Assembly (NCBI GenBank): GCA_021808485.1 | Contig: JAKBBN010000018.1 | Location: 1 to 45,541 of the forward strand | Direction of reading: 5' to 3' | DNA from: Planctomycetota bacterium | GTDB lineage: Bacteria > Planctomycetota > Phycisphaerae > WQYP01 | Length of the DNA: 45,541 nt | Shown here: positions 23,699 to 33,856 of the stretch, in pieces | Numbering within the stretch: the stretch's first letter is position 1 | Layout of the letters: each line of letters begins with the position of its first letter | The notes under the pieces: model-generated | What the model saw: the letters and a program-made list of their open reading frames with translations, nothing else | Database searches by the model: none | Told to the model about the DNA's origin: nothing | Made by a program: the position numbers and the translations under genes

Positions 23699-23765
23699 TG
23701 GGAGATTGTTAACCAAAACTAATCTTTTCACAACCAATTCTTACTTTGTCCTTCTCTCCCCTCCG

Positions 23766-23801
23766 GTAGGCGGGTTGGCTTTGCCACCTGCCTACTTTTT
23801 T
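23766..23801 (+). terminator. Rho-independent terminator or attenuator inside the M20 leader
   Basis: A 13-bp stem pairs 23766-23779 with 23783-23795 around a TTT loop; it has one bulged T and one G-T pair. Six Ts follow (23796-23801). No plus-strand gene lies upstream, and the M20 gene starts only at 23983, so this ends either a roughly 95-nt small RNA or an attenuated leader. GGGAGA (23700-23705) can pair with TCTCCC (23755-23760) just before it. Confidence 0.72.
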
Positions 23802-31545: not shown

Positions 31546-32175
31546 TCAGACCCCCGGTTTGGCGGATTTGTCCAGCGGGGAGGCCGGACGGTTTCCCATC
31601 AACGGCAGGAAACCTTCAATGGTAATGTTGTTGTGATGCGGGCTGGCTGACATCAGATAGGTCAAAAACCCTTTGTTTCCCAGGCGTGTGATCAGCAGGG
31701 TCCAGGCCTCAGAATCATGGGATTGCGGGTGGTGGCCGCAATGGCCGAAAATACCCAGCGATTTGGGGATACCGTTGTGTTTAATCGGCCCCATGCTGAG
31801 GGTCGCGTCCTCAAATCCCAGGGCTTTGTCCCGCAGGACCGGACGGAACACCTGACACAGATAATTCAACAGTACCTTGAATTTGATATGGGAGTGAACT
31901 TCATCGTCAAAATGCCGCGGATTAAGCACGGCGAAGCATTCTTCCCGCGTCAGTTCCGGCAGATATCCGATGGACGATTCCACCTGCCGCGAGAATTGAT
32001 CGCACCAGTACGCAAATGATTCCGCCATGACTTTGGCCTGGATTGCCGCGGTAACCTTTCCGCAGTGTCCGCACCGGATCTGCCGGGCTTTGCGAAATGG
32101 CAGAAAACTAAAGCCGGACTGGGGCTTTTCAAGTGGACCGGCGCAGGCCGGACACAGCATGACGGCGTGTTCCAT
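31546..32175 (-). CDS. Hypothetical zinc-ribbon protein
   Basis: A 209-residue protein not recognised. The N-terminus holds two CxxC pairs, Cys8/Cys11 and Cys35/Cys38, in CPAC and CGHC knuckles 24 residues apart, a zinc-ribbon arrangement. The middle is helical and Phe/Tyr-rich. A later FGHCGHHPQSHDSEAW is a His/Cys-rich patch that might bind a second metal. The ATG at 32175 follows GGAGGT at ideal spacing; a GTG at 32190 is less likely. It stands alone, flanked on both sides by non-coding DNA. Coding status is supported by the ribosome site and ordered cysteines; function is unknown. Confidence 0.6.
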   Translation of the reverse strand: MEHAVMLCPACAGPLEKPQSGFSFLPFRKARQIRCGHCGKVTAAIQAKVMAESFAYWCDQFSRQVESSIGYLPELTREECFAVLNPRHFDDEVHSHIKFKVLLNYLCQVFRPVLRDKALGFEDATLSMGPIKHNGIPKSLGIFGHCGHHPQSHDSEAWTLLITRLGNKGFLTYLMSASPHHNNITIEGFLPLMGNRPASPLDKSAKPGV

Positions 32176-32699
32176 AAATAAGACCTCCACCCCGACCCTT
32201 ACATTAGAATTGAAGACTTGCCGCCTTTACCGCCAGGGCCACGAGCGATCAGGATTCTCTTCATTGTGTGATACATCAAACTTCCGGCGAAAGCAACTGT
32301 GCCGCGGTCGTGCGTTGCCGCCTGTACGGTCTGTACAGCGGGGGCCGGACGCCGCACGGGCAGATCAAAATCCGGCCGGCCGTATCCCTTTCCACGGCGG
32401 AATATCCGAAAATGGAGGGCCCGCGTCGCAAAATTTCAACTTTTTTTTTCTGCGGACCTGCACGGTCTGGTAACTCCATAAGTCGATAATTCCGGCCCAT
32501 CCCGCCGAACGCAAACCATATTATTCGGCGATCGGCGGGCGGAAGATTATAGGATTGGCGGCGGACGGGGCGGGGCACGGGCGGCGGGGAATTTGCCGAA
32601 GATTATTCAAAGGCATGCCGATAGAATAGTTGTGCTGATCAGACAGTTGTCCTGAGCATATCAACCAGTGATTCGGCACAAGAGTAAAGAGCATCTTAA
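32176..32699. other. Non-coding sequence upstream of the zinc-ribbon gene
   Basis: No gene is recognised. An inverted repeat, CTGTAC (32322-32327) and GTACAG (32333-32338), is separated by five bases. A run of nine Ts lies at 32441-32449 without a good stem before it. The frames here are short and conflicting. Confidence 0.4.
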
Positions 32700-33212
32700 A
32701 GGGACCGAATGCCGATCCAGTCTGGATCGGCCCGCACGAAGCGGAAATCTGAAAGTTGTTCGGTCGCAGGAAGACAGAATTGTTTCATCCATACGGCAAA
32801 GCCGGTGGACCTCCTTCGCGGAGGGAGTGAGAGGTTTTTCGCCGCCGGTCGGCGGTGATTGAAATCAATTCTGCTTCGCCATTCGGCGGACGGTTGAGAA
32901 TAGATTGTCGTGCGGGGGAGTTGGAAGCAAGCGCCGCCGGTTTGGCGGCGGGGGAATGCAGTTCTGTACCGCGATTTCGCGGGCAGTTTTAGATAGATGT
33001 CCGGCGAGGGAGCGAGAGGTGCAATGGGCGGGGGCTCGCGTTGTCGCCCCGCCGGACCGGGTGGAGAGGTGCGGGCAGGTTCGTGAAGGAAGAGAGAGGA
33101 GTCCGATCCGCGGCAGGCAAGGCCGGTGATCCGGCAGCGGGCGCGAATCGGAATATTGTTTCGAGGGGGAGAGACTCGTCCCGGCAATGCGGCTTTATGC
33201 TGCATTGCCGGG
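32700..33212 (+). ncRNA. Candidate structured non-coding RNA element
   Basis: About 500 bases with many nested stems and no believable protein. Stem GACCGAA/TTCGGTC (32703-32709, 32759-32765) encloses a GCCGATCCAG/CTGGATCGGC hairpin. A second domain is closed by CAGAATTG (32775-32782) pairing with CAATTCTG (32866-32873), extended by TTTCA/TGAAA past one bulged T. Inside it are three hairpins: CGGC-AAA-GCCG, CCTCC/GGAGG and CGCCGCC/GGCGGTG. More follow: GCCGCC/GGCGGC near 32940, CCGCGA/TCGCGG near 32972, and GTCCGGCG/CGCCGGAC (32999-33006, 33050-33057). It ends with a terminator-like hairpin. GAGGGAG-Y-GAGAGGT occurs twice (32821 and 33006). The orientation is taken from the terminal T tract. 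It may instead be a degenerate repeat cluster. Confidence 0.4.
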
Positions 33213-33220
33213 TACATTTT
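33180..33220 (+). terminator. Terminator-like hairpin ending the structured element
   Basis: CCCGGCAATGC (33180-33190) pairs perfectly with GCATTGCCGGG (33202-33212), with three more pairs inside, giving about 14 bp around a TTTAT loop. TACATTTTT follows on the plus strand. On the minus strand it lies 18 bases past the nadD stop but has no T tract, so it fits a plus-strand transcript better. Confidence 0.5.
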
Positions 33221-33229
33221 TGCGCCGGC

Positions 33230-33856
33230 CTACGGTGCGGGCAGATACAGGCGGTGCTGCCGGATGTAGCCAGCAACGGCCGGCGGCACGAGGTCGTCAA
33301 TGGATTCGCCGGCGGCGATTCTCCCGCGGATTGCCGAGGAGGCGATGGAAAATTCCGGAATGGAAAGGCGCTGAAAATGCCGCCAGGCCTCCGGCGGAAT
33401 GTTGTCCGGACGGCTGGGCGATAACGGCCAGCCGGGCCGCGGCATGACGGCAAAATCCGCGGTTGCGGCCAGCAGTGGAAAATTCCTCCAGGTATGCAGC
33501 TTGGGCAGTTGGTCCGCCCCTATCAAAAGAATAAACCTTTCCGCGGGGTTTGCGGCCTGAAGCTGCCGAAGCGTGTCCCAGGTGAAACTGGGCGGCGGGC
33601 GCAGAATTTCCAGATCGGCGATTTCCCATGTGTCATGACCGTGCGCGGCCAGTTGGAGCATTTTCAACCGGTGATGGGCCCCGGCGAACGGCCCGGCGGA
33701 TTTATGCGGTGACGCGGCCGCAGGCACAAACAACAAACGGTCCGCGGCGGTTGCCTGCAGGGCGGCTTGCGCCGTATGCAGATGCCCCCAATGAACCGGA
33801 TCAAACGAACCGCCGAGAATCAGCGTGGTGCGGGGGAATGACGGCAAGCTGCACAT
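33230..33856 (-). CDS. nadD: Nicotinate-nucleotide adenylyltransferase
   Basis: A 208-residue cytosolic enzyme converting nicotinate mononucleotide and ATP to deamido-NAD. The nucleotidyl-transferase motif is LGGSFDPVHWGHL (14-26), containing the HxGH-type phosphate site. FTWDTLRQLQAANP and ILLIGADQLPKLHTW are NadD blocks, and IASSAIRGRIAAGESIDDLV is the C-terminal SxxxR motif. Length is typical. It stands divergent from the cobalamin adenosyltransferase, about 100 bases apart. Confidence 0.95.
   Translation of the reverse strand: MCSLPSFPRTTLILGGSFDPVHWGHLHTAQAALQATAADRLLFVPAAASPHKSAGPFAGAHHRLKMLQLAAHGHDTWEIADLEILRPPPSFTWDTLRQLQAANPAERFILLIGADQLPKLHTWRNFPLLAATADFAVMPRPGWPLSPSRPDNIPPEAWRHFQRLSIPEFSIASSAIRGRIAAGESIDDLVPPAVAGYIRQHRLYLPAP

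Follow-up and report, generated by a model that had tools for sequence, protein, structure and literature searches.

A candidate RNA sponge carrying purine boxes complementary to a conserved, predicted C/U-seed small RNA in a family of Planctomycetota

Comparative sequence analysis indicates that a structured non-coding RNA, previously uncatalogued and found in one planctomycete family, is encoded on the plus strand of the DNA stretch analysed here (the window; 45,541 nucleotides, contig C135 of the genome G000). We call it GA-box RNA. Its conserved core consists of two to five purine boxes (GGAGGGAG-Y-GAGAGG, GGGGGAGAGA and variants), and on sequence comparison these boxes are variants of the complement of the seed of a second candidate RNA, CU-sRNA. 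Since the boxes are complementary to that seed, GA-box RNA is most likely a decoy for CU-sRNA, and we consider it probable that it is a stand-alone, trans-acting sponge (target mimic) with multiple sites. GA-box RNA would be made from its own locus as a transcript of about 590 nt that ends in a terminator of its own, its boxes would pair with the CU-sRNA seed, and this pairing would keep CU-sRNA away from its mRNA targets or leave it open to decay. The computed support consists of an RNA family that is conserved and covaries, a partner element that is ultraconserved, and complementarity above composition-matched controls. Box-seed complementarity is kept although the box sequences differ. Both RNAs are presumably transcribed and presumably pair in the cell.

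The first-pass annotation had proposed a large structured non-coding RNA without a known class at 32700-33212. The proposal was supported by the lack of an Rfam match, by homologs in five genera and by covariation in two domains. An RNA does lie at this place and ends at 33221, but the proposed start was about 70 bases late because the conserved 5' domain lies at 32630-32681, which puts the real start near 32630 (Table 1). The Rfam search that had been recommended, run also in a permissive form, returned nothing for the region. Identity with tmRNA or another Rfam family was rejected (nothing from ARAGORN, nothing from Rfam at the gathering score), as was identity with RNase P RNA (RF00010), which is located at G000:C138:14795-15260 (293 bits). 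The view that the region holds no believable protein also stands, the longest open reading frame (173 aa, minus strand) having no Pfam match. The homolog alignments begin at 32620, and CGATAnnA or a similar sequence is kept in the homologs at the place of the -10-like hexamer. A consensus promoter scan upstream of GA-box RNA found nothing, and there is no good -35 element. The small putative zinc-ribbon gene on the upstream side has a paralog (G000:C144:4828-5328) close to csrA (G000:C144:4111-4266); such a paralog lies close to csrA also in G027, G025, G024, G012, G010 and G016.

Table 1. Features of GA-box RNA, its neighbours and the candidate partner (window positions unless another locus is given)
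Feature	Position	Strand	Remark
Small putative zinc-ribbon protein gene (divergent, outside the RNA)	31546..32190	-	no Pfam match
-10-like hexamer TAGAAT, putative promoter	32622..32627	+	conservation in alignments only
GA-box RNA	32630..33221	+	about 590 nt, putative transcript
5' domain	32630..32681	+	covariation, covariance model
Helix P1 of 5' domain	32630-32640 with 32670-32681	+	bulged U 32672
Inner helix P2 of 5' domain	32646-32649 with 32662-32665	+	
Purine tract GAGUAAA, 3' of P1	32682..32688	+	GAGWAAA in many homologs
GA box 1, GGAGGGAGUGAGAGG	32820..32834	+	complementary to CU-sRNA seed save at U
GA box 2, CGAGGGAGCGAGAGG	33005..33019	+	top predicted seed site of the window, -30.9 kcal/mol
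GA box 3, GGAGAGG	33063..33069	+	predicted seed site, -26.6 kcal/mol
GA box 4, GAAGGAAGAGAGAGG	33085..33099	+	exact 8-nt complement AGAGAGAG
GA box 5, GGGGGAGAGA, directly 5' of terminator	33165..33174	+	exact 8-nt complement GGGAGAGA; predicted site, -25.1 kcal/mol
Terminator hairpin, 14 pairs	33180..33212	+	homologous helix covaries, 0/500 shuffles
U tract, imperfect	33217-33221	+	sequence after hairpin is TACATTTTTG
nadD (cytidylyltransferase-like; convergent, outside the RNA)	33230..33856	-	Pfam
CU-sRNA candidate	L180:2827-2895 (G000:C64)		downstream of glyS; predicted about 107-114 nt

The structure that evolution supports, as read from the alignments, is the 5' domain together with the terminator. 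In 13 sequences the 5' domain, whose two helices comprise 12 pairs, had a covariation score of 0.463 against 0.170 in shuffles, none of 500 reaching the real value, and slid controls did not exceed 0.112. With 15 structure-fitted sequences the values were 0.477 and 0.165, although fitted alignments lean towards their own model. The covariance model matched the window at 32620-32693 with an E value of 3.7e-12, the window itself belonging to the training set. The terminator helix showed two-sided changes in 7 pairs (0/500 shuffles). Compensatory changes, which the first-pass annotation had suggested looking for in the stems it named, were found in these two domains, and its 14-bp hairpin with a T tract corresponds to the terminator, the T tract being imperfect. 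Of the other stems it had named, GACCGAA/TTCGGTC is present as sequence at 32703-32709 and 32759-32765; the AT-rich stem with a bulged T (32775-32787 with 32860-32873) is likewise present in the window but could not be seen in those g3 homologs that can be aligned. Fold energy relative to shuffles gave z = -5.6 on the plus strand and a stronger value, -7.6, on the minus strand. With unusual values on either strand, fold energy by itself settles neither which strand is used nor whether the region has a function.

A blastn search of the region against 60 relatives returned short matches only. Several of these places hold, in order, the 5' hairpin, GGAGGGAG-Y-GAGAGG, GGGGGAGAGA and a terminator, and the homologs L073-L078, L091-L097, L149, L163 and L164 agree in having the 5' hairpin first, then the GA boxes and last the terminator. 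Copies with the 5' domain number 15 and occur in genera g1, g2, g3, g5 and g6, that is, in five of the 11 genera of the family; G004 and G011 each carry more than one copy of GA-box RNA. The covariance model R2 found members in 14 of the 28 family genomes, and covariance models found no convincing member outside the family. A weak match in G131 was rejected because it reads as a coding stretch, and matches to the GA-box pattern in Gemmatales KatS3mg105, MohnsGC08 and G263 were rejected because they look like coding sequence. All related sequences come from draft genomes, and the relatives that carry names are metagenome bins assigned to Planctomycetota or Phycisphaerales. Where GA-box RNA is missing from a genome, this may reflect an assembly gap or an overlooked homolog. 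The suggestion that homologs be sought downstream of nadD in relatives proved misleading because they lie elsewhere; no GA box was present in the nadD loci fetched. Within the 3.3-Mb genome (147 contigs) there was no second copy of the full region, which answers the earlier concern about dispersed repeats, and a related GA-box stretch occurs at G000:C138:18205-18233. Two copies, L073 (G018) and L074 (G012), are interrupted by an inserted repeat (AGGAGCCTGTCCGGGT...ACCCGGGAACGCTCCT) that recurs at many other sites in genus g3 and in genomes related to it, and L078 (G002:C97) has a tandem duplication of the middle module of GA-box RNA together with its box.

The homologs are neighboured by sugar-transport genes, by a xylose isomerase and by mla-like and hydrogenase-like genes (named by eye from the sequence; the window's own neighbours were looked up in Pfam). 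Such varied neighbourhoods fit the expectation for a trans-acting RNA. They bear also on the reading of the region as a cis-acting leader or 3'UTR element of an adjoining gene, which might be favoured by the position of the RNA beside mlaE-looking genes in G013 and G011 and upstream of a sugar-binding protein gene in g3. However, nadD is convergent, the neighbours vary between genera and the RNA has its own terminator, and we hold a cis element to be highly improbable.

The duplicated motif GAGGGAG-Y-GAGAGGT that had drawn attention to the region is indeed present in both copies (32821 and 33006), but the GA-rich boxes number about five in all, not two. GA box 5 is kept in the g3 and g5 copies. 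The hexamer GAGAG[AG] occurs eight times on the plus strand of the window, and six of these occurrences fall within GA-box RNA (32829-33169). Relative to dinucleotide shuffles the hexamer was enriched in the window copy as well as in each of the four g5 copies; elsewhere it was above expectation. The exact box GGAGGGAGNGAGAGGT was found in 13 of the 28 family genomes (own genome counted) and in 3 of 369 other genomes. In predicted folds of GA-box RNA the boxes are just partly unpaired. Opposite one U of the seed, all 16 main boxes counted read C or T and never A; this fixed mismatch perhaps avoids cleavage of a double strand. A second GA-box stretch, GGAGGGAGAGAGAGTTGGAGGGAGCGAGAGG, is the one at C138:18205-18233 (L136, L150); it lies downstream of a cupin-domain gene, has no 5' domain and, at -35.9 kcal/mol, gave the strongest prediction of any CU-seed site.

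Repeated purine boxes might instead bind a protein, such as the RNA-binding protein CsrA, which RNAs of the CsrB kind titrate. CsrA is encoded in 27 of the 28 genomes, mostly in two copies (two in the own genome), the loop of a hairpin holds GGAGGGAG in genus g2 (G020, G011) and, by inspection, in G005, and the zinc-ribbon neighbour has the paralog close to csrA described above. Yet GGA was not enriched relative to dinucleotide shuffles in any homolog, which, despite the two csrA copies, argues against such a sponge. Moreover, several conserved boxes have no GGA (e.g., GCGAGAGAGGG), the common core being GAGAG, and csrA occurs equally in genomes with and without GA-box RNA. We therefore regard the CsrA reading as very unlikely. 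The main box also contains GGAGG and AGGU, and the boxes could in principle mimic the Shine-Dalgarno sequence, bind the anti-Shine-Dalgarno of 16S rRNA and so allow the RNA to bind or titrate 30S subunits. However, GGAGG is found in some boxes only, and boxes of the GAGAGA type match the CU-sRNA seed, not the usual anti-Shine-Dalgarno; this reading has hardly any probability.

The own genome was searched for the box with the pattern GRGRGAGNGAGAG and with the reversed pattern. The pattern gave six matches in three places, namely GA-box RNA (twice), C138:18205-18233 and the antisense of CU-sRNA, and the reversed pattern gave zero. The match at C64:13869-13883 is the antisense of the tract CTCTCTCTCCCTCC; this tract lies 3' of glyS and is followed immediately by a terminator. 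The predicted layout of CU-sRNA comprises a sigma70-like promoter sequence (TTGAAG-N16-TACGAT or TTGCAG-N16-TACGAT), a 5' hairpin, the unpaired seed CUUGCUCUCUCUCUCCCUCCCC and the terminator. The element occurs downstream of glyS in 21 family genomes as 22 copies, two of them in tandem in G006 (L203). Across these copies and genomes the seed core CUCUCUCUCCCUCCCC is without change and the 16-nt core CTCTCTCTCCCTCCCC of the C/U tract is invariant, and the terminator helix shows compensatory changes. The seed is predicted to be 61-83% unpaired in the six short forms (six of the seven genomes examined). In G019 (L182, G019:C101) CU-sRNA is predicted to be 257 nt long, with a GA box of its own, GAAGAGAGAGG, folded onto the seed; self-inhibition through this box is possible on the predicted fold. 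G013 possesses GA-box RNA and has no CU-sRNA directly after glyS; its CU-sRNA may be located elsewhere in the genome.

Complementarity between the boxes and CU-sRNA was assessed by a blind scan of duplex energies over 9102 forty-base windows on both strands of the 45 kb; these energies take no account of accessibility or structure. The top three sites for the CU-sRNA seed, and four of the best seven, fell in GA-box RNA. Among 100 shuffled seeds of equal composition, two also placed all of their top three sites here, so the purine-rich composition explains part of the signal; none matched the 5 of the top 10 sites obtained with the real seed. In eight related contigs the best seed site lay in the homolog in 8/8 cases with a mean margin of 6.9 kcal/mol, as compared with maxima of 7/8 and 4.3 kcal/mol for 100 shuffled seeds on the same contigs. 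When wider flanks were included for the G004a copy, its seed site fell to second place. Inside GA-box RNA, seed-complementary 7-mers reach about 50 times the density that they have in the remainder of the window. Full-length copies contain three to five exact complements of at least 7 nt, of differing sequence (GGAGGGAG, GGGAGAGA, AGAGAGAG etc.). The copies thus hold different pieces of the seed complement, so that complementarity is conserved rather than one motif. Since the seed is without variation, co-evolution of box and seed cannot be read from these alignments. Taken together, complementarity to the C/U tract, the presumed functional seed, is beyond chance. One could argue that GA-box RNA is a structured RNA whose boxes serve some other protein or function and that its match to CU-sRNA is secondary, the partner having been found by sequence complementarity only. 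The ranking of the sites, the shuffled-seed controls and the varied boxes that all stay complementary speak against this, and we give it very little credence.

Complementarity is symmetric, and the control might run in the reverse direction, with GA-box RNA as a regulated target or effector whose stability or activity is controlled by CU-sRNA. GA-box RNA is long and structured, and a pure decoy does not need a separate conserved 5' domain. However, multiple redundant boxes are typical of decoys, and CU-sRNA is present in 21 of the 28 genomes, GA-box RNA in 14-15, so that other work is to be expected of CU-sRNA. The reverse direction is therefore unlikely, though it deserves some weight. If GA-box RNA is the sponge, sequestration of CU-sRNA would be the outcome, control would run from GA-box RNA to CU-sRNA, and CU-sRNA would have mRNA targets of its own; its occurrence in more genomes than GA-box RNA means that such targets are probably older. 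As a whole, there is about an even chance that these elements form a two-RNA regulatory circuit hitherto undescribed in Planctomycetota, in which a near-invariant CU-seed small RNA at glyS is countered by a long multi-box sponge that lies at varied sites, is duplicated in some species and has a fixed mismatch in the main box, and in at least one species (G019) also by a GA box within the small RNA.

Sponges of this kind have been described in other bacteria. RosA of Bacillus subtilis, a sponge of RoxS and FsrA, is, as proposed for GA-box RNA, a stand-alone RNA with its own terminator; its three G-rich regions are complementary to C-rich regions of the small RNAs, and it acts by titration (PMC8216469). 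RosA is about 225-229 nt long, belongs to Firmicutes and was proven by experiment, whereas GA-box RNA spans about 420-700 nt, carries 2-5 GA boxes and a conserved 5' hairpin domain, and would have another partner; its sponge function is a prediction from sequence. GA-box RNA would resemble RosA in function but is apparently unrelated to it. RsaI (RsaOG) of Staphylococcus aureus is another stand-alone RNA whose G-rich regions bind C-rich small RNAs (as described in PMC8216469), in another phylum and with other partners. CrfA of Caulobacter crescentus is a non-coding RNA that inactivates the small RNAs SisA-D by base pairing (PMC12559287); its phylum and partners also differ from those of GA-box RNA, and it is associated with Hfq. 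CsrB and CsrC are, like the sponge proposed here, long RNAs with repeated purine motifs that titrate a regulator. However, CsrB titrates a protein through GGA motifs, and in GA-box RNA GGA is unenriched and there is no Rfam match. The best Rfam match of CU-sRNA was ncr982 (RF02454; 23.8 bits, E 0.33), a Bacillus small RNA in which a similar terminator hairpin likewise follows immediately upon a C/U-rich stretch; the score is below the gathering score of 50, and CU-sRNA is not a member of that family.

The PVC group is almost a blank as regards small-RNA regulation. In a 2022 survey 8 small-RNA families were counted in this group and 345 in Proteobacteria (PMC9029176), and our literature searches on regulatory RNAs of Planctomycetota turned up no relevant work. 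With two new RNA families that each point to the other as partner, function becomes testable at once. The pair also suggests independent origins, in Firmicutes and in Planctomycetota, of the control of C/U-seed small RNAs by sponges.

Possible mRNA targets of CU-sRNA were sought at the translation starts of 78 genes. Sites of -16 kcal/mol or below were found at 9% of them and in 3-6% of control windows, a difference that is unconvincing. One of the best CU-seed sites outside GA-box RNA, GGAGGGGAGAGAAGG at 23732-23771 on the minus strand of the window (-25.8 kcal/mol), lies upstream of a cytidylate-kinase-like gene and, judging from its sequence, is a possible mRNA target of CU-sRNA.
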